Below, one piece after another: positions 3,799 through 25,390 of a DNA stretch of 25,390 nucleotides. A program made the position numbers and the translations under genes. The DNA comes from a virus. Within the stretch, counting starts at the first letter, position 1, and every line of letters begins with the position of its first letter. The notes beneath the pieces are model-generated. The model did no database searches and was not told the origin of the DNA. It saw only the letters and a program-made list of their open reading frames with translations. The DNA lies in IMG/VR virus record IMGVR_UViG_3300031857_001254, positions 1 through 25,390 of that record; one strand, given 5' to 3'.

Positions 3799-4287
3799 AT
3801 GGCAGACTTACTTATGAAAATGCCCTTACCTTATGAACCTAAAAGGAAGAATAGATTTATTTTACGTTTTCCATCTTCATTAGGTATTAATGAATGGTAC
3901 GTTGAGTCAACAAAAAGACCTTCAATTAAAATTAATGCTGTTACTATTCCTTTTTTAAATACCGAAACTTATGTTGCTGGTAAATTCAATTGGGATACAA
4001 TTAACGTAACATTTAGAGATCCTATTGGACCTTCAGCAGCGCAAGCTCTTATGGAGTGGGTTCGTTTACATGCAGAATCAGTCACAGGTAGAATGGGTTA
4101 CGCAGCCGGTTACAAGAAAGATATTGACTTGGAACTCCTTGATCCTACGGGAGTTGTGGTTGAAAAATGGATTTTACAAGGGACGTTCTTATCTGGTGTT
4201 GATTTCCAAGATTTGAACTATGGTCAGGATGGTTTAGCAACAATTAATGCTACGCTTAGACCGGATCGTTGCATATTGGTATACTAA
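3799..4287 (+). CDS. Tail tube protein (T4 gp19-like)
   Basis: The 162-residue length matches T4 gp19, whose hexameric rings form the inner tube through which DNA passes. Supporting features are an N-terminal KNRFILRFP strand, the WYVESTKRPSIKINAVTIPF segment, LNTETYVAGKFNWDTINVTFRDP (tube proteins typically carry a loop naming the tube interface followed by a W/F-aromatic strand), a helix with ALMEWVRLH, and a C-terminal strand series ending NATLRPDRCILVY. This order of strands and a single central helix is typical of the tube fold. Genes for a gp26-like protein, tape measure and baseplate follow. A sheath gene is not in the window. Related fold proteins (gp48, gp54) are much larger, so tube is the best call. 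Confidence 0.85.
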   Translation: MADLLMKMPLPYEPKRKNRFILRFPSSLGINEWYVESTKRPSIKINAVTIPFLNTETYVAGKFNWDTINVTFRDPIGPSAAQALMEWVRLHAESVTGRMGYAAGYKKDIDLELLDPTGVVVEKWILQGTFLSGVDFQDLNYGQDGLATINATLRPDRCILVY

Positions 4288-4351: not shown

Positions 4352-5929
4352 ATGGAATTTTCTTTTTTCACAACAGATAATAAATCGGGTTATAAAACAA
4401 GAGAAGGTTGGTTTTCTAAAAATCATCCAGAAGTTTATGATGAAATTATTAGTTATTCTTCTAAAATAGATTTAAACCTTTCTTTCAAAGAAAAAATTTG
4501 GTTTTATTTTAACCAATTATCTGAAAGACCAAAATGTGTAACATGTTCTAAAGAACTTAAATTTAGAGAACGATTCGATAATCCATACGGAGAATTTTGT
4601 TCATTAATTTGTATTAATACAAATAAAGATGAAATGCTTAAACGACAAAAAAATACCTTCAATGAAAAGTATGGAATTGATTTTTATCCTCAACACCAAG
4701 ACTTTGTAAAGAAACAAAAACAAACAAAATTAGAACGTTATGGTGATGAAAATTTTGTTAATGCTGAAAAAATGCTAAAAACAAAATTATTAAAATATGG
4801 TAGAGAAAATATTAGTAACTCTAAAAAATATAAAGAAACATGTATTAAAAAATACGGTATAGATAATTTTGCAAAAACAACTGAATTTAAAAACAAAATT
4901 CATCAAAAATATAGAGATTTATATCCAAATTATAATATAATCAATATTGATGGTACACAATTAACTGTTTTTTGTGAAAAATGTGGTGATAATTATGAAA
5001 TTCATAAACAAGTTTTTTATGAAAGAATTCGTGATAACAATATTGTCTGCACAAATTGTAATAAACTTGGTCAATGTTTCATTTCAAGCAAGGAACAAGA
5101 AATTAATGATTTTGTAAGAAGTTTAAATATTGAAACAATTCAAACATTTAAAACAAAAGACAAAACTGAAATCGACATTTTTGTACCATCAAAAAACTTA
5201 GGGATTGAGTTAAATGGTGTTTATTGGCACAACGAACTCTTTAAAGATAAGAATTTTCATTTAAGCAAAACAAAAAGTGCTGAAAATGATGGAATTGAAT
5301 TGCTTCACATATTTGAGGATGAATGGAATGGTAAAAAAGAAATTGTTAAATCTATAATTAAAAATAGATTAGGATTAGTTGATGAAAAAATCTATGCTAG
5401 AAAATGTTACATAAAAGAATTAACCTCAAAGGTTACTAGTGATTTTTTAAATGAAAATCATATTCAAGGTGAAACTAAATCATTAGTAAAATTAGGTTTA
5501 TTTAATGGTGAAAAATTAGTTTCAATTATGACCTTTTCAAAAGGTAGAATTATAATGGGTGGAAAAGACGATGAATGGGAGTTGGTTAGATTTTGTAATA
5601 TTTTAAATACAAATGTTATCGGAGCGGCATCAAAATTATTAAATTATTTTATAAAAAACTATAATCCAAAGAAAATTGTGTCTTATTCAGATATTAGACT
5701 TTTTAATGGTAGTTTATATGAAAAAATAGGATTTACAAGAATATCACAATCACCACCAAGTTATTGGTATGTTATTAATGGTATTAGGCATTATCGTTTT
5801 AATTTTAGGAAATCCATTTTAATTAAAGAAGGTTTTGATTCAAATAAAACAGAACATCAAATAATGTTAGATAGGAGTATCTATAGAATTTATGACTGTG
5901 GTGCGATAAGATGGGAATTAAACTATTGA
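4352..5929 (+). CDS. Free-standing homing endonuclease, Vsr-like (EDxHD) type
   Basis: This 525-residue multidomain protein has an N-terminal Cys pair set (CVTC...FCSLIC, about residues 62-87), then about four degenerate repeats of around 20 residues each opening with K/RYG (from residue 106 to 190), which look like DNA-binding modules. A second zinc-ribbon-like CxxC...CxxC follows (about 209-237). The nuclease core is about 245-335: SSKEQEI, TEIDIFVP, GIELNGVYWHNE and HIFEDEW, the Glu/Asp/His pattern of Vsr-like EDxHD homing enzymes. The C-terminal 370-480 region (KLGLFNGEKLVSIMTF, VIGAASKLLNYF, LYEKIGF) resembles a GNAT-type fold. It sits between the complete tail tube and gp26-like genes with no disrupted exon, so it is a free-standing mobile gene. 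DNA cleavage is inferred from the motifs. Confidence 0.85.
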   Translation: MEFSFFTTDNKSGYKTREGWFSKNHPEVYDEIISYSSKIDLNLSFKEKIWFYFNQLSERPKCVTCSKELKFRERFDNPYGEFCSLICINTNKDEMLKRQKNTFNEKYGIDFYPQHQDFVKKQKQTKLERYGDENFVNAEKMLKTKLLKYGRENISNSKKYKETCIKKYGIDNFAKTTEFKNKIHQKYRDLYPNYNIINIDGTQLTVFCEKCGDNYEIHKQVFYERIRDNNIVCTNCNKLGQCFISSKEQEINDFVRSLNIETIQTFKTKDKTEIDIFVPSKNLGIELNGVYWHNELFKDKNFHLSKTKSAENDGIELLHIFEDEWNGKKEIVKSIIKNRLGLVDEKIYARKCYIKELTSKVTSDFLNENHIQGETKSLVKLGLFNGEKLVSIMTFSKGRIIMGGKDDEWELVRFCNILNTNVIGAASKLLNYFIKNYNPKKIVSYSDIRLFNGSLYEKIGFTRISQSPPSYWYVINGIRHYRFNFRKSILIKEGFDSNKTEHQIMLDRSIYRIYDCGAIRWELNY

Positions 5930-5974: not shown

Positions 5975-6724
5975 ATGGAAAATCTAGATGCTCAATACGG
6001 TCAAATGAATTTTAATTTACCTCACGATGTTGTATTATTACCGTCAAAAGGTATTTTTTATAAGAATAAGAAAAAGTCTGTTAAGGTTGGTTATTTGACC
6101 GCTGCGGATGAAAATATGTTGTTATCAACAAATAATAATGATTTGATTATTAACCTTCTACGTTCAAAAATTTATGAACCAGACTTAAGACCTGAAGATT
6201 TGCTAAACGGTGATATTGAAGCAATTCTAATCTTTTTAAGAAATACTTCATTTACTCCTGAATATAATATAACTGCTACAGATCCAAAAACAGGTAAAAA
6301 ATTTGATAGCGTAATAGTTTTAGATTCATTAGAGTCAATCACACCTGAAGTAGAACCAGATGAAAATGGTTTATACACAACAACATTACCAAAATCAAAT
6401 TCGGTTGTTAAATTAAAACCTTTAACATATCGAGAAAGAAATGAAATCGATAAAAATGCTGAAAATTATCCAAAGAATAGGACAGCGCCGATTGTAACGT
6501 GGAGACTACAAAAACAAATTGTTGAAATAAATGGTGATAGAGACCTTGGTAGTATTTCAAAAGCAATAGAAACTCTTCCAATTATGGATTCGAAATATAT
6601 CAGAAATTTTATGTTAAGAAATGAACCAAGATTGGATTTAGAAAAAGAAATTGTTTGTCCTTCCGGAGAGAGGATAAATGTCCAAATTAATTTTGGACCG
6701 GAGTTTTTTCGTCCTTTCTTCTGA
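5975..6724 (+). CDS. Baseplate hub assembly protein, T4 gp26-like
   Basis: The 249-residue protein contains LPSKGIFY (about residues 22-29), a run of charged strand (KKKSVKVGYLTAADENMLLS), then a helical LLNGDIEAILIFLRNTSF segment and PEYNITATDP. This LPS-G-Y, T-A-D/E-E, L-GD--A-L-LR pattern is characteristic of the T4 baseplate hub family that includes gp26. It lies two genes before the tape measure, as hub genes do in T4. The T4 protein is somewhat shorter (208 residues). The stop is TGA, not the usual TAA, and its final 47 bases overlap the next ORF in the +1 frame; a frameshifted product of about 295 residues is possible. An upstream TATTTTTAT (5948-5956) is a weak match to the late motif. 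Confidence 0.75.
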   Translation: MENLDAQYGQMNFNLPHDVVLLPSKGIFYKNKKKSVKVGYLTAADENMLLSTNNNDLIINLLRSKIYEPDLRPEDLLNGDIEAILIFLRNTSFTPEYNITATDPKTGKKFDSVIVLDSLESITPEVEPDENGLYTTTLPKSNSVVKLKPLTYRERNEIDKNAENYPKNRTAPIVTWRLQKQIVEINGDRDLGSISKAIETLPIMDSKYIRNFMLRNEPRLDLEKEIVCPSGERINVQINFGPEFFRPFF

Positions 6725-6863
6725 GTATAGAAAATCGTCACTTGACGAATATTATTATTTGGCGAAGTATTTGAATTTGGATTATAGTTCTTACTTATCC
6801 ATGCCAATATTCATTCGACGTTATTTAATTGATAAATTGATTGAGGAATATACTAAAAAATAA
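6678..6863 (+). CDS. Small ORF overlapping gp26-like gene, just before tape measure
   Basis: The frame encodes 61 residues if initiated at ATG 6678. The conserved-looking part is SSLDEYYYLAKYLNLDYSSYLSMPIFIRRYLIDKLIEEYTKK, predicted helical, which I quote only in outline: DEYYYLAKYLNL and IFIRRYLIDKLIEEY. The upstream gene is in the other frame through 6724. Two ways of making it are visible. A Shine-Dalgarno-like GGAGAGG lies just before the ATG, which is unusual in this genome. Alternatively, ribosomes could slip +1 at TTT-CGT (6707-6712), fusing this helix to the gp26-like protein. Position before the tape measure resembles the frameshifted chaperone pairs of many phages, or T4 gp51 by order. 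Function is unknown. Confidence 0.65.
   Translation: MSKLILDRSFFVLSSEYRKSSLDEYYYLAKYLNLDYSSYLSMPIFIRRYLIDKLIEEYTKK
6704..6712 (+). other. Candidate +1 ribosomal frameshift site
   Basis: In the gp26-like frame the codons read GAG TTT TTT CGT. A one-base forward slip of the P-site tRNA-Phe from TTT to TTC enters the downstream frame (GTC CTT), bypassing the TGA at 6722. The same TTT-CGT-C arrangement is the +1 slip site known from influenza PA-X. This is a sequence-based suggestion only. Confidence 0.4.
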
Positions 6864-9129: not shown

Positions 9130-12100
9130 ATGCCAAGTCAATTAACATTTGAAGCTACTGAATTTTTAAGAAATAAGTTGTTGAATAGAAATTTACCTTC
9201 CTATAATAAAGAAGGTCAATTTTCTTCTCCACCTCCCCCAAATGCTTATGAATATCAGCAAAATGATTTTAATGTTATTGATTCACCTGATAATTTAATC
9301 GACGATGGTATTTTAATTAGTGGACAATACGCTTCAAATAAATACGGTCCAGATGGTGGTTATACAACGGATATAGCATCAATAGGTACTGTTAGCATTG
9401 GTTCAAATGAGGGACCGTATGGTAACAATGATGCTGACCTATTAGAATTTAGCAAAAGTTTTCTATCTAACTTAGGTCTTAATAACATATATTCACCAGT
9501 TGCTGGTGTGGTCGGTGAGAATTATAATTTTGTTTATACAACAGATGTTAAATTTCCCCAACCATCACCTAAGTGGTTATATTCACCTTATTTACCTTAT
9601 TGGGATCCCCCTAGTTTTAGACCATCATTTTATTCACCATTTGAATTATTTATAAATCCGTTCCCTGTTGGGAATAATGGTTCTTTAAGTGATGATTCAG
9701 TTTTAGCACAAAATAGTGCTAATTCATTCAGAACCATGATGCAATATCGAGTACAACAAAATTTATATACCGAAACAATCGGTAGATTGAATTTTATTGA
9801 TGCTCTTAGCGATCCGACAGATTGGATTGCAATTTTAAATGGTAATGTACCTTTAATTGAAAGAAATTATCAAATTACCGTACCACAGAGTTTACTTGGA
9901 AGGGGTGCGGATTTCTTAGCTAGATTACAAGGGTTATATTATCCAGCTTCAACAATTCCGGGTGATTATTTTGAAGAAGCTAATAGAACAGAAAACAACA
10001 ATACGACATTTATTGGTCGAACAATAGATTATATTGGTGGTTTATTTGGATTGGGCGGTAGAAGAGGTAGAACACCTTCTCAGTTATTTTTGGATAACAC
10101 TAGTGCTGGACAAAAGAAACAATTATCAAATAACTTAGAATTTAATAAGTATAGACCTTTTTATGTAACAAATTCAGCACAAAATCCTGTTGGTTTTGTA
10201 TCGAGATTGTTGGGTATTCAGTTTCCCGCTGGAAATTATTATGTTGGAAGTCAGGATAGAGACCCAAGCTATATTTCATCACCTCCGGGTCAAATTCCGT
10301 TGGATTCAAGTGGAAAACAAATTGATGCGTTGGTTTATGGTCCCGAATTATTAGCTAAAGATTTTGAAGGTACCGATAATAATTTAAAAATTGGTTTAGC
10401 TGGTAAAACGGTTATTGATAGTGGTGGAATTAATGGTGGTATGTCTTGGAACTCACAAAAATTCAGCGGTAATGCTGGATTTAAAGTTGGTCCCGGTGGT
10501 GATATTGTTAAAAATGATGATGAATTTAATGCGATAAGTTCACAATATGAATCAACAAAATCAACAAATTATGATTTTAAAGAGGGAAGCATTCTTTATA
10601 ATACACAAAAACTAATTGATTCACAACCACCTAATGCGAATAGATATTCACATGCTGGTAATGCTATTGACCAAGTTTCAAAAATATTTAATGATGGTTA
10701 TAAAGAAATAACAAAAGGTTCAAAAGTAATCAGTTATATTAACGAAAATGGAATTGAAAAGGGTCAAGAATATTGCAGAATCTTTACCAAAGATACACCA
10801 TATTTAACGTATGCTGATTTACAAAAGACCGATGGTAATATTAGAAAGTTTGAAAATTCAGTATTAAATAATACGTTTAATTTGAATATTGCACCATTTA
10901 AAGGTAATGGTAGTACCAATATTTTAAATGATTCTTCAGCAAATGCTAATGATGGTAAAGTTAAAAAATATATGTTCTCACTTGAGAATTTAGCTTGGAG
11001 AACATCATCAAAACCCGGTTTTAGAGTTCAAGATTTACCAATTTGCGAAAGAGGACCGAATGGTGGAAGAATAATGTGGTTTCCACCATATGAATTAACT
11101 TTTAATGAAGATTCAAGACCAGATTTTGCAACTCACGTATTCTTGGGTAGACCTGAACCGATTTATACGTACAAAAGTACATCAAGAAGTGGTTCTTTAA
11201 GTTGGAAAATAATTGTTGACCATCCATCTGTACTTAACGTTATAACAAATAAAGTTTTAAGCAAAGAAACTAGTAAGGAAAAAGTTAATTCAATTATTGA
11301 TTCATTTTTTGCTGGTTGTAAAAAGTATGATCTTTATGAATTAGCTGCGAAATACCCATCAATCCCAATTTCTGAATTAGAACTTTTACAAAATGTAATT
11401 AATAATCCGAATTCTTCGGAAGAAGATGTTCGTGAAGCATATCGACAAAATACGGTAACTGATGCTGGAGCACAAGACCCCTCAAGTACATCAACAAGTG
11501 GGTCAATTGATAGTTTTAATGAAACGATGTTTTATTTCCCTGTATTAGATAACTCACAAGGGGTTTTAGCTAATACTAGTTATGAAATTTATTATAATGA
11601 GTATATTACGCAGAAGCAAAATAATTACGTATCAGATAATTTAGCAAAAACTTTTATTGAAACTGAAGTTGAGCCAACACTAAATAACCTTGATAGTTTA
11701 ATAGAGACGGTATATGACGCAATAAAAAATAAAGGTGTCAGTGTTGTTAAATTAAATTTTGAAGCTTCTATATACCCACCAAATCGTTCATTAGATATTA
11801 GTTCTGAACAGATTGCTGGTTCAACACCCTCAAACAAAGTTAGTACAATTAAAACTTATTTAACTCAAAGAGTTTTACCATCAGGTAATGAGGAAAAAAC
11901 CTTAAGAGATTATATAAATAATAATAAAGTAATTATTACAACATTATCAAGTCTTTCAGATATTGCATCAACTAATACCAACAGTTTTAATTGCTTAAAT
12001 CCTGAGGAACCACAAACTGAAACTAATAAAATGGCGTGTAATAGTATTAGAATTAAAAGTATTATTACGGAAATAACACCGGAATCAAATACTGTTACTG

Positions 12101-13872
12101 AAAATGAAACACCAGTAGCACAACCCGCAACAACACAACAACCAACATTATCTGAGCAATCAATAACAGGTATTTCAAAAAGATTATTGAGAAATCTTCT
12201 TTCAGAATGTGATTATTTCGAAATGATAAAAGAAGATGACCCAATGTTGTATGACTCAATAAGTCAGAAAATTAAATATTTCCAACCAGCATTTCATAGT
12301 ATAACACCTGAGGGATTAAATTCTAGATTAACATTTTTGCAACAATGTATGAGACCCGGAGAAACAATCCCAACTATTGGTGCTGACGGTCAACCAAAAA
12401 CAACTGACGCATTAAATACATCATTTGGTGCTCCACCTGTTCTTGTTTTACGAGTTGGAGATTTCTTTAATACTAAAATAATACCAACTAGTTTAAGTTT
12501 AAAATATGAAAATTTAGATATTAATCCAGAAGGCATTGGTGTCCAACCCATGATTGCGACAGTTACCATGAGCTTTAATTTTATTGGTGGTCATGGACTA
12601 AGAGAACCTGTACAAAGATTGCAGAATGCGTTATCATTCAATTATTATGCGAATACTGAAATGTATGATGAAAGAGCGATTGCAACCGAAGATACGAAAA
12701 AATTTGACCGTCAAGTTCTTGATGCGATATTAGCTCAGGTTGAACCACCAAAAGCAACAGTTAATAATATAACGAATAATGGTGGTAATACAATTGGAGA
12801 AATAATTAATAGCGTTCAAACAAGTACTAGTGAGACGGGTACTACTAGCTATATTAAGATTATGGACACATTAATTTCAGAGTCTCAAACATATTTTAAT
12901 GCAACTATAAATGGATTTGAAGGAATAATTAATAATTATAATTATGGAATTCTACAATTGATTTCTGATAATAGAAAATATACCACAGGTAATTTTGGAG
13001 CGACTAATGTGGAAATTGTTGGTAAATCAAATAAAATACAAGATAATATTGATAAATTATTTAAATCGGTCATTTCTGATATTAAAAATGAAAATAATCC
13101 CGTTTTTAATAGTTTTAGTGCTTACACAACTAATGCCGAAAAAAGAATATTTAAGAGAAATTATGAAAATTATTTGAATGAGTTAAGAAATTCATTTACC
13201 GATAATTTAAATAACACAATTAATGATTTAACCACAGCACAAGAAAATTTAATTTTTACCGTTGAAAAAATTAATTATTTAATTGATGAAAAGGCTGATG
13301 GATTAATACAGGGAAATGGTGATGTTAAAATATATAAACTAGCATCAAATAATGAGAAATTTATTATAATGGTTAAAGATTATGGAATTATTGCAACATC
13401 AGCAAATACCTTCCAACAAATGCTAGTTGAGAAAAAATTATTATTTAATTCTTATATAAATAACATATTTGTTCCGGCAAACAATGATTTTAATACGCTA
13501 GAAGATGAGGTTAAAACAGAATATATGATTATTTGTCAAAAATTATTAAATAATACTGATGAATTTTTAAACAAAATAACAAAAGACATTAGTGAAGATG
13601 TTAGTGATTCAATTATAGGTTATTATAATACTTTAAAAAATAATAGTTATAAAGAAGAATTTGATTCTGAGATTAAATTAATTAATGATTTTAAACAAGA
13701 CAATCCTCAATACACTAAATTTATTCCACTTGATAGCACACCAACAGAAAGAACTGTTGAGTTTGAGGTCGCAAAGGCATCAACATCAGAAAGAAATAAA
13801 TTAATTAAACTTTATGATGAAGAAAATAGTGGTTCAAATAATACATATAATGGAAAATACAAATTTTTATAA
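9130..13872 (+). CDS. Giant baseplate/tail-tube-initiator-like protein (1580 residues)
   Basis: The N-terminal third (1-600) is Pro-, Tyr- and Asn-rich without recognised domains. Residues about 614-702 (FSLENLAWR, MWFPPYELTFNED, GRPEPIYTY, SGSLSWKIIVDHPS) and about 1102-1172 (PPVLVLRVGDFF, SLSLKYENLDINPEGIGVQP, FNFIGGHG, LQNALSF) look like the two halves of a contractile-tail tube-initiator fold, as in gp48/gp54 or the tube proteins of contractile injection systems. About 400 residues separate them, including a stretch at 801-908 with a faint OmpA-like look. The C-terminal 390 residues are helical and Asn-rich. The position after the tape measure matches gp48/gp54 in T4, but those have about 320-360 residues. 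Baseplate location is likely; details are inferred. Confidence 0.7.
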   Translation: MPSQLTFEATEFLRNKLLNRNLPSYNKEGQFSSPPPPNAYEYQQNDFNVIDSPDNLIDDGILISGQYASNKYGPDGGYTTDIASIGTVSIGSNEGPYGNNDADLLEFSKSFLSNLGLNNIYSPVAGVVGENYNFVYTTDVKFPQPSPKWLYSPYLPYWDPPSFRPSFYSPFELFINPFPVGNNGSLSDDSVLAQNSANSFRTMMQYRVQQNLYTETIGRLNFIDALSDPTDWIAILNGNVPLIERNYQITVPQSLLGRGADFLARLQGLYYPASTIPGDYFEEANRTENNNTTFIGRTIDYIGGLFGLGGRRGRTPSQLFLDNTSAGQKKQLSNNLEFNKYRPFYVTNSAQNPVGFVSRLLGIQFPAGNYYVGSQDRDPSYISSPPGQIPLDSSGKQIDALVYGPELLAKDFEGTDNNLKIGLAGKTVIDSGGINGGMSWNSQKFSGNAGFKVGPGGDIVKNDDEFNAISSQYESTKSTNYDFKEGSILYNTQKLIDSQPPNANRYSHAGNAIDQVSKIFNDGYKEITKGSKVISYINENGIEKGQEYCRIFTKDTPYLTYADLQKTDGNIRKFENSVLNNTFNLNIAPFKGNGSTNILNDSSANANDGKVKKYMFSLENLAWRTSSKPGFRVQDLPICERGPNGGRIMWFPPYELTFNEDSRPDFATHVFLGRPEPIYTYKSTSRSGSLSWKIIVDHPSVLNVITNKVLSKETSKEKVNSIIDSFFAGCKKYDLYELAAKYPSIPISELELLQNVINNPNSSEEDVREAYRQNTVTDAGAQDPSSTSTSGSIDSFNETMFYFPVLDNSQGVLANTSYEIYYNEYITQKQNNYVSDNLAKTFIETEVEPTLNNLDSLIETVYDAIKNKGVSVVKLNFEASIYPPNRSLDISSEQIAGSTPSNKVSTIKTYLTQRVLPSGNEEKTLRDYINNNKVIITTLSSLSDIASTNTNSFNCLNPEEPQTETNKMACNSIRIKSIITEITPESNTVTENETPVAQPATTQQPTLSEQSITGISKRLLRNLLSECDYFEMIKEDDPMLYDSISQKIKYFQPAFHSITPEGLNSRLTFLQQCMRPGETIPTIGADGQPKTTDALNTSFGAPPVLVLRVGDFFNTKIIPTSLSLKYENLDINPEGIGVQPMIATVTMSFNFIGGHGLREPVQRLQNALSFNYYANTEMYDERAIATEDTKKFDRQVLDAILAQVEPPKATVNNITNNGGNTIGEIINSVQTSTSETGTTSYIKIMDTLISESQTYFNATINGFEGIINNYNYGILQLISDNRKYTTGNFGATNVEIVGKSNKIQDNIDKLFKSVISDIKNENNPVFNSFSAYTTNAEKRIFKRNYENYLNELRNSFTDNLNNTINDLTTAQENLIFTVEKINYLIDEKADGLIQGNGDVKIYKLASNNEKFIIMVKDYGIIATSANTFQQMLVEKKLLFNSYINNIFVPANNDFNTLEDEVKTEYMIICQKLLNNTDEFLNKITKDISEDVSDSIIGYYNTLKNNSYKEEFDSEIKLINDFKQDNPQYTKFIPLDSTPTERTVEFEVAKASTSERNKLIKLYDEENSGSNNTYNGKYKFL

Positions 13873-13874
13873 GC

Positions 13875-14195
13875 ATGTATAGGTACTACGATAGATATAA
13901 AAATTTTTTAATTAATGGTCAACAAACTGTTGTACCATTTATATCTATTCCAGAAAAAAATTCAGATAAACAATACATATATAAAGAGAACGTTAGTCGT
14001 TTAGATAAGGTTTCATTTGAATATTATGGTTCGCCATTATTTACTTGGTTAATATTATCAGCAAATCCAAAATTTGGTGGACTTGAAAGTAATATACCGG
14101 ATGGATCAGTATTGACAATCCCATTTCCATTGGTAACTTCTCTACAAGATTATAATTCACAGTTAGAAAACTACTTCTTCTATTATGGTAGATAA
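13875..14195 (+). CDS. Baseplate wedge protein, gp53/LysM-like
   Basis: The 106-residue protein carries a LysM-like core: RLDKVSFEYYGSPLFTWLIL (residues about 41-60) followed by SANPKFGG and IPDGSVLTIPFPL. This R-D-S-YYG-W-L-AN-I-G-L-IP order is shared by LysM domains and by T4 gp53, which joins neighbouring baseplate wedges. T4 gp53 is about 196 residues, so this is a short version holding mostly the LysM-like part. It begins two bases after the preceding giant gene and overlaps the next by 11 bases (ATGGTAGATAA), implying coupled translation and matched output of baseplate parts. Confidence 0.8.
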   Translation: MYRYYDRYKNFLINGQQTVVPFISIPEKNSDKQYIYKENVSRLDKVSFEYYGSPLFTWLILSANPKFGGLESNIPDGSVLTIPFPLVTSLQDYNSQLENYFFYYGR

Positions 14196-17100
14196 CGAAA
14201 AAATATTAGTTGAGGTTGATTATGACAATATTGTTTTAATTGACCCAAATAAAGTAATTGGTGATAATGGAAAATCGCAAGAACGACTTGTTAAGCAAGA
14301 AGATTTAGTTATGTATGCAAATCTTGAAGCTATTTTTGTTCCTCGCACAAAATTTAATATAGGTTCCGCCCAAGACGATACGGTTCAACCAGTAACAATA
14401 GCAACAAATAATTTCGGCGCAATAAATTTTTTAAATCCCGGAAATGAAGGTTTTTTTACAACAGAATGGTCTGATGAAATTACGGGTAAAGATACTTTAA
14501 AAAATGAAGGTACAAATCAAATAAGACAGGTAATTGATACAAATAGTGCTTTTTATTTAAAACAAAAAATCGATAATGTTAAAGATACACAAACGTTAGG
14601 TATAACTAACATTCTTGTTGATAATAACGCATCTCAAACACCTGTGGTTACAATAGATTTGGTCGATGTTGGTGGAAGAACCCTTTTTGAAAAAGGTGAC
14701 GAATCCCCATATTCTGTATTTTTTAATTTACCATATCCAACATTCTATTTAACATTAAAAGGTTATTTTGGAAAAGCAATCAGATATCAGTTGATTTTAG
14801 CTAAATTCACATCTGAATTAGATTCACAAAATGGTAATTTTACTGTTAGATTAACTTTTTATTCATATAAGTATACAATATTAGCTGATTTACAAATAGG
14901 TTCTGTTTTGGCGTTACCAAACATGTATAATACAACTTATACGTTAATACCAACAACCGAAACCAACCAAAATTCAGATGCAGCAAGAATTTCTGTTGGA
15001 CAAACAGATAAGCCGGTAACAAATGTTGTTGTTGGTAAAGGCTATCAAAAAATAAGAGAATTATATTCTGAGTATAAAAGCAAGGACTTAATACCTGAAG
15101 ATTTTCCTGAATTATCGATACCACAATTAGTGGTTAAACTTGAAAATTTTGAAAGAAATATAATAGCACAATTAGGCACCGAAAAATTTGATTCATTTAC
15201 CGACATTAAAAATTATAAAGAAGGTATTAAAAACCTACAAACTAAAGTATTCTCAACAAATCTTGAAGCTTGGTCCAGAAAATATTTGGATTTGGAAAAT
15301 TACTATATTTTAATCAAACTAAAAACAAATGACCCAGAAGTAAGAGCTTATAGATATAAAAAAGAAATTAGTAGTGATTTACAAAAAATTGAAAATGCTA
15401 AAGCCGAACTAACTAAATTAATAGAAGAATTAAAAGAAGTTTGGACAAAAAATAGCACATTAGGCCCAAATGGAACGTATACTATTAATGGTAAAACAAT
15501 AGAATCACAAATTAATTTTAACCTAAATGTTGATTTAATAAATAAAAATATTAGTGATAACCAAATTGATTGGTGTGAAACCTATAGAAGAAAATTTGGG
15601 CGACAGATAAATGAAAAATGTAAAGAAAGTGTTATAGAAAATTATGGTGATTTTTCTAGCACAATATATATTGAAAATAGTACAGAAATAGTAATTAATA
15701 ATATATTTGTTTTTAATGGTGAAAATTCCTTCAATAAGGAAATTAATCAAATGATAACCAAAGCAAATAATATTGAAGAACAAATTGAAAAAGAATTAAC
15801 CGCAATTTTACAAAAAAAATTAGAATCTGCTGAAGGTTTAGGTTTTAAGCCAACAATTAGAAATATTTTTGCAATTATATTTGCATCGGTAGAAGGTATT
15901 TTTAGGTTACTTGATGATGTTCATAAAGATGCTTTTGATCAGAGATATAGTAGAGTTAGATACGATGCTTTATTTTCCGATGGTAAAGACGATGTTAGCT
16001 CTGATTCAACAGATTTAGTATCAAAAACTCAAGAACCAAATCAAACTAACGGTGATATTCAGGTATATCCTTGGCCTGAGTTTTTTATAAAAACAGAAAC
16101 TGAGAATAAAATTAGTTTTCCTTTAGCTTATCCGGCTGATCCTGAACTAATTGAAAAAACACAAGCAGATAATTACGATATTTGGCCTGAAGTTGAATTT
16201 GTTGAAGAAATGATAAAAGGTCTTACACAGAGAGATGTTGTGTTCAATACTTCCGATGTTACTTCAGACGAAGAATATAGTGTAAATAGATTATCACTTA
16301 ATGCAATTGAATTTCCAACAACAAATAGGTCTTATGGTCCAAAAGAATTTGTTAAATTCTTTTATGAAATAAAAGAAAGATTAATTGTAGCTTCAACAAT
16401 TGATAAACTTAACAGAAATTATAAGCAAACGAATGATATAACTGAGGTTATTGCTCAAATGGAGGCGTATAATATACTTACATCATTAAGTGTAGATAAT
16501 CCTCAGATTATTACCGCATTAAAGAATTTTAAGATAGATAATCAAGAAAATTTTGATGCTTATTTGAAACAAATATCAAATGAAGGTATTGGTGAAAGCT
16601 GGCAATTATATATTAGAGGTTTATATAGCACACCATATTTAAGAGAATTAACAGAACAAACAAAAGATTTTAATATATTACCCAGCGATATAATTTCAGG
16701 TCCATCACCAAATTCTGAAGTTGAAAGTATTAACAAATTAGTTATGTTTTTAAATCAGGATTCAAATGTTATTGATTTTACCGATATATATCCGATAGTA
16801 AATCTTGAATGGGCAAGACAAAATTTGGCAAATGGTTCCGGATTAGGTTCAATAACTAATTTAACTAAAACATCTTCTGTTATTGGGTTTAATTCAGAAA
16901 AAAAACATATTACTAATTTTAACACTAATGAAAATGACAAAATAAAAAGACCATTAACAAGTTTTTCTTTTACATTACAGACACCGCCAAACACATATAA
17001 CAACTCAATTGAACTAAATACTTTTTATCAAAATAGATATAATAATTATAATAATTTATTACCAACCGAAGGACTTATAACATATGAAAATTCTCCACCT

Positions 17101-20100
17101 AGTTCAGTTGGTAACAATCAAACTACATCTATATTCAATACACCTTTTATGATTAATGCACTACAAAGTGCTGCGGATAAACTAAGAAATAATAACCCAC
17201 ACCCATTTACTGAGGCTGCGTACCTTTTTTTAAATTCACTACCGCTCTCAACTCTCAAAGAAAAGTATATTTCACAAAATGAAAATTCTATTAACAACTT
17301 AGATTACTTAATTTCATCATTTAAAAAATTTGGTGCAACGCATAAGCTGCCATACGCTTGGATATTAAAATATGGATCTATTTGGCATAGATATAAAAAT
17401 TATGTTGATTCAAACGGAACAAATGATTTAATAAACAATGTTTGGACTAACGCAAATACATTCACAAATTTCGACCCTGTAAATAGTAACCCAACAAGGC
17501 AATATAATCTATCAATTAGTGGTGAAACAAATTCAATTGTTTTACAAAACGTTGGGAATAACGTTACAAGTATGAATTTGGGTTTTTATCCTAAATTAAT
17601 AAATGATTTTTATTATCTATTAACAAATAAAGAATATTTTCAAACATATTCAGATTCCGAAATACAGGAAAAAATTGATAACCAAAGTTTGTTTTTAAAT
17701 CGAAATCAAGTCAATAGTTATGCACAAGGGGTTGATTTATTAAATCCTAGTAGGTCGATTTCTATAAAATATTGGGATGTATTGTTAAAAACAAATGATT
17801 CAAGTGATTTTTCAGATGAAAATAAACAGAAAACAATTGTGTTACCATCGTTTGGTACAACAACTAATCAATCTAAGTTTGAGTGTTTTAGTGACTCAAA
17901 CCAACTAAATGTTGAAGTTTTAAATAATCAATCACTTTTTAATGGTTCGGCTAGACTTTTCTGGGCAGCACCAAACTATGGATATTTTGACGAGTCTCAA
18001 GCGATCAAACCAAATTATGACGAATATCTTAAAGAAATATTTACTCAAGCACAGAATCAAACACCATTTTCAATTAACTCGTCATATTCAAAAATAGATG
18101 AATTAATACCAACATTTAAAAAAGAAATTTTGGATAAATTTGAAGAGGAGTTTTTAAAATTCTCACAAAGCTCTTTAAATATTCCTGAAGAAAATAGAGG
18201 TACAAATTCTTATTTGAAAAACTTTCAATTATTGTTATCAAATTTATTAATTATTGATGATGTTTCAGTAAATACATCTGTTGTTAATAACGTTTGGTCA
18301 AATCAAACAAAAAAGTTCTCACAAACAATAACCACATTTTTATTAAATAATGATATCTATTTTAGATATGGTAATCCATCTAATTTTAATAGAAGAATTT
18401 TTAATTCATTTAACACAAAAACTGTTGTAGATCCTTATTCTTATAATGGTTATATAAATAATACATTACCACCACAAATTAGCTTATCGGCATCAGAAAC
18501 AAACAATCCTGATGCGTGGAACGCAATGAAGAAATATATTGGGTTTTACACAATTTCGGGTATGAATTATTCTGATACCGGATCAACACTAACAGATTTT
18601 TTCATTGATATTGACGTTGAATTTACAAAAGAAAATGTGGAAAATCTTTTCCCATTAATTCAAATTTATGGTACACAAAAATTAAATGGTCCAATAAATA
18701 AAGAACAATTTAAACAAAAATTATATGATTATTTAATTAATAATGTTGATGGTTTTGAAGCAAATATTTTACAAAAAACAATAACCATTTTACAAAAACA
18801 ACTACCAAATGTAAGTTCTGTTTCACAAGAAAATAGAATACCCCCTTCTAATGATAAGCAAGGTAAACTTGAATTATGGCAACATTTTAAGACCTTTAAT
18901 GACAGATGGATTGCTGGTAATGATTATAAAAACAAAACACTTTTTGAGGATGTTCTATTTTTAGATAGAGCAAGTAGAGATTTAGGTAATTTAGTTTATG
19001 TTGATATCTTTAAATTAAAAGATAGAATAAAAGCAAGATATGATGGAAAGGGTAGGGTTATTGATTTAATAAGCGCAATTCTTGAAGAAAACAAATTTAT
19101 TATGATGCCTTTACCAGCATTCGTTAATTTTTACGGAGTTACAACACCACAATTAACAGATAATCCTAGTATTGAATCATCTTTTGATTTTGCAAATGAT
19201 TTATTTGGTACATTTTTAAATGTAGATTATAGAAATTCATCACCAAAATTAGTTTGTTTTTACACCGATATCCCAAGTCAGCATTTAGATTTAAAAAATA
19301 ATCCAAACTATCTTTATAGAACCGATGCATTTGATTTAGGAAGACCATCAAATAACACAAATAGAGAAAGTTTAGCTAATAAAAAGGATTGGTATTTCTC
19401 AAATCGATGTGTTGGATTTAATGTTGATTTTGGAACTAGAAATCAAAGTATGTTTAAAACATTAACTTTAAGTCAAGAAAATACTTCAAACACATCAGAA
19501 ACATTTAAAATATATGAAATGATGGCTGACCAAGCTGCTGGCAGGTCTGTTGCACAACAGAACGTTTCGTTATTTACTGAATATAGAAATAGATCATATA
19601 CTTGTACCGTAATGGGAATGGGTAACGCATTAATCCAACCAACAATGTACTTTAATTTAAAACATGTACCAATGTTCAGCGGTCCTTATATGATTTTAAG
19701 TGTAAAACATATTTTAAATTCTGGTGAATTTATAACCCAGTTTACTGGTGTTAGAATGCCGGTATTTTCATTACCAACAATCAACAATTCATTAGCGTCA
19801 CTAAACACTAATTTATTTAGTAAAATTTTTAGTGATATAAAAGCAGACGTACAAAAAGCACAAGCCGATGGTGATTTAAGTTCAAACAAAATAAACTCAA
19901 ATAATTCAATACAACTTCAAACTTCAAAAGATAAATCACCTGTTTCTGAAGGATGTACAATTTATACTCTTGGTGATAATACAAACACAATATACTCAAC
20001 ATATAGAAAAGCGGGTCAAGCAATTAGAAATTCATACTCAATTCAAGAAATAATTTCTATCATAAAAAGTAAAGTGGTTGGTTCAGATGATAATACCAAA

Positions 20101-20577
20101 AAAATTAGAGCAATGGTATTTTCAACAATTTATCTCGATGGTGGCGATAGACAAGAAGTAATTGCGTGGAACAATAATTTTGGAGGTGCGCCGTTAAAAG
20201 ACCTTCAGGATAATATAATTTCTTATTCAGAATCCGCTAACGTATATTTCCAAAAACAATATTTATGTTTAAGAGGAATAGATGGATATACATTACCATA
20301 CCCAACATTTGAAACCGTCGATAATAATATCTTATTCTTAAGAGATAAATTTACGAATTTAACGGGAAATATTGATTTATCATCTTACACAAATGACACA
20401 ATTACAGGAAACACTTTAACAAATACATTATTTAAGAATTGGGTACAAAATTGGCCCAAGAATAATCAAGTTGATTTTGAAGATTTTGTAAGAACAAATG
20501 AAAAAAAGGCGCAAAGTTTAAAAAATAAATTTGGTCAATCGGTTTCATTAATGAATTCTATGAATCTTTTCACATAA
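14185..20577 (+). CDS. Giant baseplate hub-like protein (2130 residues)
   Basis: This is the largest gene in the window. An N-terminal region (about 1-255) has beta-rich sequence such as PTFYLTLKGYFGKAIRYQLI and FTVRLTFYSYKYTILADL. The middle is Asn/Thr/Ser-rich with helical stretches near 310-440. Residues about 1622-1857 resemble a tail hub (gp27/gpD-type): RVIDLISAILEENKF, a segment ending CTVMGMGNALIQPTMYFNL, and HVPMFSGPYMILSVKH with FITQFTGVRMP, the usual closing strands of hub barrels. The last 200 residues (about 1924-2130: IRAMVFSTIYLDGGD, WNNNFGG) weakly recall a glucosaminidase-type lytic domain. T4 splits these roles over gp27 and gp5. It overlaps the gp53-like gene and is followed by two small genes. 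Hub role is probable; lytic activity is a guess. Confidence 0.7.
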   Translation: MVDNEKILVEVDYDNIVLIDPNKVIGDNGKSQERLVKQEDLVMYANLEAIFVPRTKFNIGSAQDDTVQPVTIATNNFGAINFLNPGNEGFFTTEWSDEITGKDTLKNEGTNQIRQVIDTNSAFYLKQKIDNVKDTQTLGITNILVDNNASQTPVVTIDLVDVGGRTLFEKGDESPYSVFFNLPYPTFYLTLKGYFGKAIRYQLILAKFTSELDSQNGNFTVRLTFYSYKYTILADLQIGSVLALPNMYNTTYTLIPTTETNQNSDAARISVGQTDKPVTNVVVGKGYQKIRELYSEYKSKDLIPEDFPELSIPQLVVKLENFERNIIAQLGTEKFDSFTDIKNYKEGIKNLQTKVFSTNLEAWSRKYLDLENYYILIKLKTNDPEVRAYRYKKEISSDLQKIENAKAELTKLIEELKEVWTKNSTLGPNGTYTINGKTIESQINFNLNVDLINKNISDNQIDWCETYRRKFGRQINEKCKESVIENYGDFSSTIYIENSTEIVINNIFVFNGENSFNKEINQMITKANNIEEQIEKELTAILQKKLESAEGLGFKPTIRNIFAIIFASVEGIFRLLDDVHKDAFDQRYSRVRYDALFSDGKDDVSSDSTDLVSKTQEPNQTNGDIQVYPWPEFFIKTETENKISFPLAYPADPELIEKTQADNYDIWPEVEFVEEMIKGLTQRDVVFNTSDVTSDEEYSVNRLSLNAIEFPTTNRSYGPKEFVKFFYEIKERLIVASTIDKLNRNYKQTNDITEVIAQMEAYNILTSLSVDNPQIITALKNFKIDNQENFDAYLKQISNEGIGESWQLYIRGLYSTPYLRELTEQTKDFNILPSDIISGPSPNSEVESINKLVMFLNQDSNVIDFTDIYPIVNLEWARQNLANGSGLGSITNLTKTSSVIGFNSEKKHITNFNTNENDKIKRPLTSFSFTLQTPPNTYNNSIELNTFYQNRYNNYNNLLPTEGLITYENSPPSSVGNNQTTSIFNTPFMINALQSAADKLRNNNPHPFTEAAYLFLNSLPLSTLKEKYISQNENSINNLDYLISSFKKFGATHKLPYAWILKYGSIWHRYKNYVDSNGTNDLINNVWTNANTFTNFDPVNSNPTRQYNLSISGETNSIVLQNVGNNVTSMNLGFYPKLINDFYYLLTNKEYFQTYSDSEIQEKIDNQSLFLNRNQVNSYAQGVDLLNPSRSISIKYWDVLLKTNDSSDFSDENKQKTIVLPSFGTTTNQSKFECFSDSNQLNVEVLNNQSLFNGSARLFWAAPNYGYFDESQAIKPNYDEYLKEIFTQAQNQTPFSINSSYSKIDELIPTFKKEILDKFEEEFLKFSQSSLNIPEENRGTNSYLKNFQLLLSNLLIIDDVSVNTSVVNNVWSNQTKKFSQTITTFLLNNDIYFRYGNPSNFNRRIFNSFNTKTVVDPYSYNGYINNTLPPQISLSASETNNPDAWNAMKKYIGFYTISGMNYSDTGSTLTDFFIDIDVEFTKENVENLFPLIQIYGTQKLNGPINKEQFKQKLYDYLINNVDGFEANILQKTITILQKQLPNVSSVSQENRIPPSNDKQGKLELWQHFKTFNDRWIAGNDYKNKTLFEDVLFLDRASRDLGNLVYVDIFKLKDRIKARYDGKGRVIDLISAILEENKFIMMPLPAFVNFYGVTTPQLTDNPSIESSFDFANDLFGTFLNVDYRNSSPKLVCFYTDIPSQHLDLKNNPNYLYRTDAFDLGRPSNNTNRESLANKKDWYFSNRCVGFNVDFGTRNQSMFKTLTLSQENTSNTSETFKIYEMMADQAAGRSVAQQNVSLFTEYRNRSYTCTVMGMGNALIQPTMYFNLKHVPMFSGPYMILSVKHILNSGEFITQFTGVRMPVFSLPTINNSLASLNTNLFSKIFSDIKADVQKAQADGDLSSNKINSNNSIQLQTSKDKSPVSEGCTIYTLGDNTNTIYSTYRKAGQAIRNSYSIQEIISIIKSKVVGSDDNTKKIRAMVFSTIYLDGGDRQEVIAWNNNFGGAPLKDLQDNIISYSESANVYFQKQYLCLRGIDGYTLPYPTFETVDNNILFLRDKFTNLTGNIDLSSYTNDTITGNTLTNTLFKNWVQNWPKNNQVDFEDFVRTNEKKAQSLKNKFGQSVSLMNSMNLFT

Positions 20578-24301: not shown

Positions 24302-24460
24302 ATGGGAAGAAAGAAAATAACTAACGAAGAAAAAAAACAAAGTATTTCTATTGCTCTGAAACCGGAGTTATTAGAATATTTTCGCGGACTCCATATTAAT
24401 CTTTCTTCTCTAATAAATAAATTATTAGAGGATTATAAAAATGGAAAAGAAAATATGTAA
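24302..24460 (+). CDS. Small ribbon-helix-helix (Arc/CopG-type) DNA-binding protein
   Basis: The 52-residue protein has the ribbon-helix-helix layout: basic N-terminus (GRKKITNEEKK), a strand QSISIAL, helix A (KPELLEYFRGL), and helix B beginning LSSLINKLLEDY, with the S-L-I-N/K-L-L pattern typical of the fold. Such proteins bind DNA as dimers and often repress their own operon. Its last 20 bases overlap the start of the downstream endonuclease, so the two are probably translated together. I infer that it could regulate that endonuclease. The gene is too short for routine ORF cut-offs and can be missed. Confidence 0.8.
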   Translation: MGRKKITNEEKKQSISIALKPELLEYFRGLHINLSSLINKLLEDYKNGKENM

Positions 24461-25390
24461 TAAATGTGGAATCGAAGCTCTTATATCGAACCAAGGAAAA
24501 GGTTTTTGTGAGACTTGTCGAGTTTTGGACATTAAAGAACAACGAAGTCGTAAATATTTTGAAAAAAAAGAGCAAGAGAGGTTAGAGTTATTTTATAGGG
24601 ATTGTCCGATTTGTGGGAAAGTAATAACCTATAAAACAAGTAATGGATGTTATAAAGCTAATAAAAAAAACACATCTTGTTTGACTTGTTGTAAAATGGG
24701 CGAAAAAAATCCTTTTTATGGTAAAATCCATACCGCTGAAAGTATGGATAGAATGAAGAAGACCACACTAGAAAGTGAAAAAAGAAAAGACTTTTGGAAA
24801 AGACAACAAACACAAGAATTTAGAGATAAATTAAGTGAAACTTTAAAGATAAGACAACCAAATAAAGGTAAGGGTTATTATAAAGCGTGGATTAGAGATT
24901 ATGGGTTAGAAGTTGCAAACCAAATGGTAAAAGAATTTGGTGATAGAATATCTAAAACAGCTAAAGGTAAACGCTTAGGGATACCACCAAAACACGGGAT
25001 TGCATGTGGTAACGGATGGTCTGGTTGGTATAAAGAATATTTCTTTAGAAGTGTTGGTGAGTTAAGTTTTATAATAAATGTGATTGAGAGATTTGGATTT
25101 AATGCGATTTCGGCTGAAAGTCAGAAATATAAAGTGCGTTATTTTATAGATGGTTTTGAAAGAAATTATTTTCCGGACTTTGTTTTAAATGATAAGTACG
25201 TAGTTGAATGTAAACCAAAAAAATTACAAGAAATACCTCATAATAAAATTAAGTTTGATGCCGCTAAATTAAAATTCAAAGAAGATGGTTTAATCTTTAA
25301 GGTTGTTGACATTCCAATTATTGATTTTAATCTATTATTAGATTTACATGATAAGGATTTAATAAAATTTTCTAAAAAAACAAATGAAAA
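24441..25390 (+). CDS. Homing endonuclease with NUMOD3 and PD-(D/E)xK motifs, 3' end cut by window
   Basis: The frame runs from ATG 24441 to the window edge (316 full codons). Two Cys sets suggest zinc ribbons (Cys6, 9, 23, 26; Cys55, 58, 80, 83). A NUMOD3-like motif GEKNPFYGKIHT (about 87-98) follows, known from homing endonucleases as a DNA-binding element. Near the C-terminus are a Ser-Val-Gly-Glu (SVGEL, Glu207) and a PD-(D/E)xK core: FPDFVLNDKYVVECKPKK with Asp246, Glu256 and Lys258. These are nuclease residues, so DNA cutting is inferred. It overlaps the ribbon-helix-helix gene and lies downstream of uvsX. It differs in nuclease type from the endonuclease at 4352, so the two were acquired separately. 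Confidence 0.85.
   Translation, partial: MEKKICNKCGIEALISNQGKGFCETCRVLDIKEQRSRKYFEKKEQERLELFYRDCPICGKVITYKTSNGCYKANKKNTSCLTCCKMGEKNPFYGKIHTAESMDRMKKTTLESEKRKDFWKRQQTQEFRDKLSETLKIRQPNKGKGYYKAWIRDYGLEVANQMVKEFGDRISKTAKGKRLGIPPKHGIACGNGWSGWYKEYFFRSVGELSFIINVIERFGFNAISAESQKYKVRYFIDGFERNYFPDFVLNDKYVVECKPKKLQEIPHNKIKFDAAKLKFKEDGLIFKVVDIPIIDFNLLLDLHDKDLIKFSKKTNE

Follow-up and report, generated by a model that had tools for sequence, protein, structure and literature searches.

Lambda-type phages (P2, Mu and HK97 relatives) carry the G/GT arrangement, in which two frames that overlap just 5' of the tape measure gene yield a short and a C-terminally extended form through a -1 slip at an X_XXY_YYZ site. 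T4 gp26 and gp51 are both classed as chaperones of hub assembly; gp51 is required, yet the virion does not contain it (PMC3004832). Slips in the +1 direction are described elsewhere. In E. coli prfB (RF2), a +1 slip occurs with a duplex in the mRNA exit channel, formed by a Shine-Dalgarno (SD) sequence with 16S rRNA, while a stop codon occupies the A site. The sites of influenza A PA-X and plant amalgavirus are UUU_CGN, where tRNA-Phe moves from UUU to UUC before a rare A-site Arg codon (PMC3498833, PMC5052127); a change of UUU_CGU to UUC_AGA abolishes shifting in PA-X (PMC3498833). The +1 shift of yeast ABP140 is stimulated by a conserved stem-loop located 6 nt 5' of the heptamer; this works only at sites that allow re-pairing of the P-site tRNA, and one extra spacer codon abolishes the stimulation (PMC12661321). 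Artificial upstream hairpins also raise +1 shifting on E. coli 70S ribosomes (PMC6321510).

We analysed positions 1 to 25,390 of the virus record IMGVR_UViG_3300031857_001254; this whole stretch of 25,390 nt is referred to as the window. It contains a gp26-like gene with a tail tube gene on its 5' side and a long probable tape measure gene on its 3' side (Table 1). Flavobacterium phage immuto and Bacillus phage SP-15 both have a gene annotated as the tape measure at the equivalent place. The tail tube gene is separated from the gp26-like gene by a 525-aa ORF with DUF7487 (4352-5929), possibly an inserted mobile gene resembling homing endonucleases. Another homing endonuclease is likely encoded at 24441-25388, where the ORF gave a NUMOD3 match and a TnsA-like match below the cut-off. 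The window also has a ThyX-type thymidylate synthase (PF02511; 596-1276, minus strand) and a gp32-like ssDNA-binding protein (PF08804; 21582-22406), both consistent with a large T4-like phage. Two very large ORFs of 1,580 and 2,130 aa (9130-13872 and 14185-20577) lie among the tail genes, and no family match above threshold was found for the 1,580-aa ORF. There are no tRNA genes in the window.

Table 1. Positions of the features discussed in the text (window coordinates).
Feature	Position	Strand	Basis or remark
Tail tube gene	3799..4287	+	phrog_4542, E=9e-28; upstream of the gp26-like gene
gp26-like gene, short form of 249 aa, ending ...FGPEFFRPFF*	5975..6724	+	ORF; PF12322; phrog_150; AlphaFold model
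Predicted long form, 295-aa fusion via +1 shift	5975..6863	+	Continuous reading with UUUC as one Phe
Position of the clade's canonical outer stem	6657..6698	+	Pair counts on 122 sequences; energies
SD-like GGAGAGAGG and ATG of a separate +1 ORF	6665..6680	+	Not conserved in relatives
Window hairpin, GTCCAAA (6680-6686) with TTTGGAC (6692-6698)	6680..6698	+	Minimum free energy (MFE) fold of -60..-1, z -3.0
GGAG, possible extra SD-like element	6700..6703	+	Sequence; directly 5' of TTT TTT, 3 nt from the P-site codon
+1 shift site TTT_TTT_CGT_C	6704..6713	+	In frame; conserved in homologues
+1-frame C-terminal domain, 50 aa, three helices, stop at 6861-6863	6711..6863	+	Alignment A2; pN/pS; AlphaFold
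Probable tape measure gene, 731 aa	6896..9091	+	Position directly 3' of the gp26-like and +1 ORFs

The short form belongs to the PF12322 (T4_baseplate) family of T4 gp26, matching 11-218 of the 219 profile positions with E=1.4e-9 and 38.5 bits, above the curated cut-off of 24.5; it also matched phrog_150 with E=3e-14. AlphaFold was run separately on the gp26-like part and on the +1 domain. The model of gp26-like residues 1-243 had a pLDDT of 87 and matched predicted viral baseplate-hub proteins of the gp26 type (54 hits with E<=0.001). Sequence and fold searches of the PDB found no significant relative, and no Foldseek match to a tail assembly chaperone was significant. In the fold test against gpG and HK97 gp13, 2ob9 was the likeliest PDB match listed, with a probability of 0.54 but an E-value of 1.1. 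The locus shares with the lambda-type systems the two overlapping frames directly before the tape measure and the short and extended forms; the family here is by sequence that of T4 gp26 and not gpG.

The initial annotation had suggested that a +1 shift joins the gp26-like gene to the ORF that follows it, and the elements that it listed were found in place. The gp26-like ORF (5975-6724) and the +1-frame ORF (6678-6863, 61 aa from its ATG) overlap by 47 nt (6678-6724), and TTT TTT CGT C at 6704-6713 lies inside this overlap in the gp26 frame. When UUUC is read as a single Phe, a continuous protein of 295 residues results. At this site, the P-site UUU (6707-6709) would re-pair to UUC (6708-6710), with GTC (6711-6713) as the next codon. 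The expected junction peptide in the window is INVQINFGPEFFVLSSEYR, both for a +1 shift and for an mRNA with a run of five U's, while a -2 shift would add one F. The resemblance of TTT-CGT-C to the PA-X site, also pointed out in that annotation, is correct (PMC3498833, PMC5052127). Among the 7,555 codons of the window ORFs, in-frame TTT_CG occurs once, at the shift site, which speaks against a chance occurrence.

The site is conserved well beyond the window. We surveyed 80 loci in a manner independent of the overlap, since the profile used (A1) ends before it, and every one had an in-frame TTT_TTT_C, followed through as TTT_CGN in 78 cases and as TTT_CTC in 2. In each of the 80, the site precedes a domain of about 50 aa in the +1 frame. 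Both TTT_TTT_CTC loci share an identical local sequence, at which re-pairing from UUU to UUC is still possible. A search with the window protein gave 56 relatives, and in all 53 in which the end of the gene was reached, the pattern TTTTTTCGNCCTTTCTT[CT] was present and the +1 frame continued for about a further 50-60 codons (in one case it is cut short by the contig end). The 18-mer TTTTTTCGNCCTTTCTTC occurred in at least 120 stretches of viral contigs; among the viral matches listed, every one fell, in the same frame, where a gp26-like ORF ends. Bacterial genomes searched for this pattern as a control yielded 114 sites, and no gp26-like ORF contained any of them. Assignment of a host through bacterial genome contigs was dropped, as these 114 matches are due to chance.

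The codon that follows the slippery triplet is a rare one. CGN makes up 48 of the 7,555 codons in the window ORFs, in which AGA accounts for 71% of Arg codons, and AGA plus AGG for 81%; in the gp26 genes of the homologues, AGA/AGG account for 85%. At the shift site itself, AGR is absent and CGN is used to its exclusion. CGC and CGG together represent 39 of 1,591 Arg codons upstream in the gp26 genes of the relatives, compared to 77 of 122 at the shift site. A slow A-site codon beginning with C is what a slip of the P-site tRNA-Phe from UUU to UUC requires, and A-site tRNA levels are taken here to follow phage codon use.

The extension downstream of the overlap behaves as protein-coding sequence in one frame. 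Pairwise pN/pS beyond the overlap was 0.22 in the +1 frame vs. 0.96 and 1.62 in the other two frames, indicating that the extension is under purifying selection in the +1 frame only. AlphaFold predicted three helices for the +1 domain with a pLDDT of 91, and in an alignment of 35 diverse members (A2), residues L2, S3, S4, P32 and R36 were invariant. Three of the 35 matched phrog_634, the gp51 family, over profile positions 70-119 of 121 (best E=4.9e-5), while the +1 domain of the window itself gave no match to phrog_634. Weak matches to PF20546 (DUF6760) were seen for seven of the 35 (best E=0.0019). Comparison of the homologues thus bears out the +1 reading, with the slip site present in all those examined and the +1 frame under selection, and on these comparative grounds it is close to certain that a +1-frame fusion product exists.

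The rival to frameshifting named in the initial annotation was independent initiation, by which a separate small protein would be made from the ATG at 6678. The window does have a good SD and ATG: an SD is present where it was reported, although GGAGAGAGG (6665-6673) is slightly longer than the GGAGAGG given. Some ATG was also found in the overlap of 39 of 122 relatives, and gp51 of cyanophages is annotated as a separate ORF. However, start positions vary between relatives. Among 122 non-redundant sequences, an ATG was present in the overlap of 39 and a GTG without ATG in that of 10; 62 had TTG alone and 11 lacked all three, so that 73 had neither ATG nor GTG before the end of the motif; the ATG position of the window was used in 11. 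Up to +60, 8 of 131 distinct sequences lacked ATG, GTG and TTG altogether, and in three loci (L030, L049 and L112) there is a +1-frame stop directly 5' of TTT TTT. Because conservation does not extend to the ATG and a +1-frame start is missing altogether from some homologues, independent initiation is contradicted as the general mechanism; retention of the ATG and SD with loss of the slip site, the pattern that would have favored it, is the opposite of what the homologues display, in which the slip site is essentially invariant. Nor does it explain either TTT_TTT_CGN or the hairpin described below. We consider it very improbable as the source of the +1-frame product, with supplementary initiation possible in the window's own clade. 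The sequence hallmarks of UUU_CGN +1 frameshifting were found: an in-frame site within the overlap, a rare A-site codon and, in some relatives, a +1 ORF with no start of its own.

Directly upstream of the shift site, the clade has a conserved RNA hairpin, which was not included in the initial annotation (nor were the probable relation of the +1 domain to gp51 and the possibility of transcriptional slippage). Its outer stem pairs -48..-43 with -10..-5 and its inner stem -33..-26 with -18..-11, separated by a 9-nt bulge on the 5' side, UCAGGAGAA, and the hairpin ends 4 nt before TTT_TTT. The bulge (alignment A4 columns 19-27, window 6662-6670) is strongly conserved, contains AGGAG and encodes S-G-E; its conservation may reflect either coding alone or an RNA element. 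Codon usage within the stem is constrained at synonymous positions: the Gly codon at -9..-7 is GGG in 93% of cases vs. 8% elsewhere, and at -48..-43, Ala and Pro are mostly encoded by GCC CCG or GCC CCA. We had suspected from the GGG bias that GGGG served as an SD, but dropped this, since GGGG covaries with the upstream GCC/CCN codons and is therefore read as the 3' side of the stem. The GGAG immediately before TTT TTT in the window is present in only 27 of 122 relatives.

Covariation in the 122 sequences supports this structure. Paired cells amounted to 85.3%, compared to 37-60% when the partner was slid, and double-changed cells numbered 130 vs. 55 in shuffled data. The top three of 1,596 column pairs by corrected mutual information (-30:-14, -31:-13 and -46:-7) all fall in the structure, while pair -28:-16 of the hairpin ranks ninth and pair -49:-4, which would lengthen the outer stem, ranks sixth. 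On a tree of the upstream protein, 34 switches from one Watson-Crick pair to another were counted at five pairs, vs. 1-7 when slid. The shuffles and parsimony counts correct for relatedness in part, and the slid controls share the same relatedness. RNAalifold alone returned only four outer-stem pairs; the inner stem is derived from averaged pair probabilities and covariation. The window carries a local variant that departs from the bulged consensus and ends 5 nt before TTT TTT. Its GTCC (6657-6660) and GGAC (6695-6698) could form an outer stem instead of CCCC:GGGG, although by prediction the local hairpin is the more stable fold.

The covariation shows that the RNA is selected, though it does not specify for what purpose. 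The hairpin might have some other role, such as in mRNA stability or in translation of genes further downstream, with the +1 frame still coding. However, its position is fixed beside the shift site, and hairpins are predicted at the equivalent place in distant +1 phages, so that we regard another role as quite unlikely. The spacing also resembles that of ABP140: with the last stem position of the clade at -5, or at -4 if one more pair is counted, and the P-site codon at +3, the gap is 7 or 6 nt, and in ABP140 a natural covarying hairpin ends 6 nt before the P-site codon and acts with P-site re-pairing (PMC12661321). It differs in that ABP140 has a CUU_AGG site on the eukaryotic 80S ribosome, compared to a bacterial host and a bulged hairpin here (PMC12661321). 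Considering the ABP140 stem-loop and the artificial hairpins that act on E. coli ribosomes, we propose that the same mechanism operates at the phage site, and it is likely that the hairpin stimulates the shift.

By analogy with these systems, one gene probably gives rise to two tail-assembly chaperones through a hairpin-aided +1 slip at UUU_CGN. Most ribosomes would complete the gp26-like short form. A fraction would slip by +1 with tRNA-Phe (anticodon GAA) on UUU in the P site and the rare Arg codon CGN in the A site, where the rarity of CGN would cause a delay and the hold on UUU in the E and P sites would be weak. On its way out of the ribosome, the mRNA would refold into the hairpin, which would have its base about 6-7 nt behind the P-site codon and would pull the mRNA in the 5' direction; the tRNA-Phe would then re-pair on UUC, a better match, and the three-helix domain, probably of the gp51 type, would be translated. 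The short form would be the counterpart of lambda gpG and T4 gp26, and the long form that of lambda gpGT and T4 gp51, the pair loading tail tube or hub parts onto the tape measure protein. Gene position and the comparison with T4 point to such a chaperone function in the phage of the window. Apart from the direction of the shift (+1 here, -1 there), the difference from the lambda-type systems is that the conserved hairpin lies upstream of the shift site. Compared to PA-X, which has no evident stimulator and an efficiency of about 1%, the site here belongs to phages and bacterial ribosomes (PMC3498833, PMC5052127).

The main rival is transcriptional slippage, in which the polymerase would drop one U within T6, helped by the nascent hairpin, to give a U5 mRNA that encodes the same protein. 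T6 is invariant in the window's clade even though TTC makes up 18% of the Phe codons in the window, the conserved hairpin ends 4 nt upstream of it, and stem-loops in the nascent RNA are a known trigger of single-base deletions (PMC5009743). In the Roseiflexus IS element, a hairpin likewise lies upstream of a T-run from which a single base may be lost, but it is adjacent to T5C5, compared to a 4-nt spacer, T6 and conserved rare codons here (PMC5009743). With the stem 4 nt away from the run rather than adjacent, the RNA-DNA hybrid would include bases that mismatch after realignment. Furthermore, slippage by the polymerase needs no C after the T-run, and AGR would serve equally well, yet it never occurs at the site. 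A homopolymer run is not found in all members either: three distant loci have only T3, as TTC TTT CGT (L176), AAC TTT CTA (L177) and AGC TTT CTT TGG (L178), and retain both the +1 domain and a predicted upstream hairpin. In distant phages, the site reads UUU_CGU or UUU_CUA, with no T-run. T6 is explained equally well by weak pairing on UUU in the E site (PMC6321510, PMC3498833). Transcriptional slippage is unlikely, and the shift itself is likely ribosomal. A -2 shift on the U-run would reach the same frame with one additional Phe, as the second UUU is able to re-pair on UUU two bases back. It leaves unexplained why a C follows the run, why the A-site codons are rare and why three loci have T3 only, and 5' hairpins favor forward slips (PMC6321510); we consider a -2 shift extremely improbable.

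The locus can also be compared with the two T4 proteins. In the T4 locus (NC_000866, 115802-117228), gp51 is paralogous to gp26 but carries an additional domain of about 48 aa at its C-terminus: residues 1-201 of gp51 match PF12322 (E=4e-52), as does gp26, and the gp26 and gp51 families align by hhalign over 191 columns (E=2e-21). The rest of gp51, its C-terminus, falls in phrog_634, the end of which was matched by the tiny gp51 of OLIVR5 (E=2e-7) and by the three +1-domain members (best E=5e-5). As single sequences, T4 gp26 and gp51 gave no significant match to the clade profiles; matches were found with Pfam, PHROG and family-level hhalign. Since T4 gp51 appears to be a gp26 extended by a C-terminal domain of this type, one frameshifting gene would correspond to the gp26/gp51 pair, and the T4 genes look like a split version of the short/long chaperone pair, separate, divergently transcribed and paralogous in T4 but a single gene here.

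Relatives with sites for the opposite direction were also found. The gp26 genes of the cyanophages S-PM2 and MED4-213, of Rhizobium phages and of Stenotrophomonas phage YB07 end with U_UUU_UUC or U_UUU_UUG, and a tiny gp51-like ORF comes next in the -1 frame. A site of this type is also present in Aeromonas phage AS-yj, where the -1 extension behind it is unannotated, and a 595-kb phage (LR756511) has the same gene pair with a -1 arrangement at T_TTT_TTC. The -1 sites are those of S-PM2, MED4-213, RHph_I9, YB07, OLIVR5, AS-yj and LR756511, and the +1 arrangements those of RM378, Mel-JY01, immuto and SP-15. Six loci from cyanophage, Rhizobium, Stenotrophomonas, Agrobacterium and Aeromonas (L390, L391, L392, L394, L273 and L275) carry a canonical -1 heptamer at the end of gp26, followed in the -1 frame by a gp51-like domain, which in most cases has been annotated as a small gene of its own. 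Most simply, the gp26 family would be a tail chaperone with a long form made by a -1 shift, by a +1 shift, or, in T4, from a separate paralogous gene.

Our literature search found no phage UUU_CG site and no upstream stem-loop in phage frameshifting; as far as we could find, +1 sites with an upstream hairpin are known in eukaryotic viruses and yeast, with no phage case. We are inclined to think, with some reservation, that this is the first natural UUU_CGN +1 shift in a phage or bacterium driven by a conserved hairpin of the mRNA itself within the exit channel, where it would mimic the prfB duplex without an SD, and that the gp26 family has switched between -1 shifting, +1 shifting and duplication (T4 gp26/gp51) for the same chaperone pair. 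The locus would provide bacterial translation with a natural upstream hairpin at a +1 site that is supported by covariation; the 2025 work on yeast ABP140 had expected that upstream hairpins might exist in other organisms. It would also mean that UUU_CGN of the PA-X type is not confined to eukaryotic viruses, and the natural variants of the site number well over a hundred. In a large group of phages, most of them uncultured, a single gene appears to yield two versions of a tail-building helper protein. This suggests that the T4 proteins gp26 and gp51 may represent the short and the long half of a chaperone pair in the lambda style, which other T4-like phages would make from one frameshifting gene.
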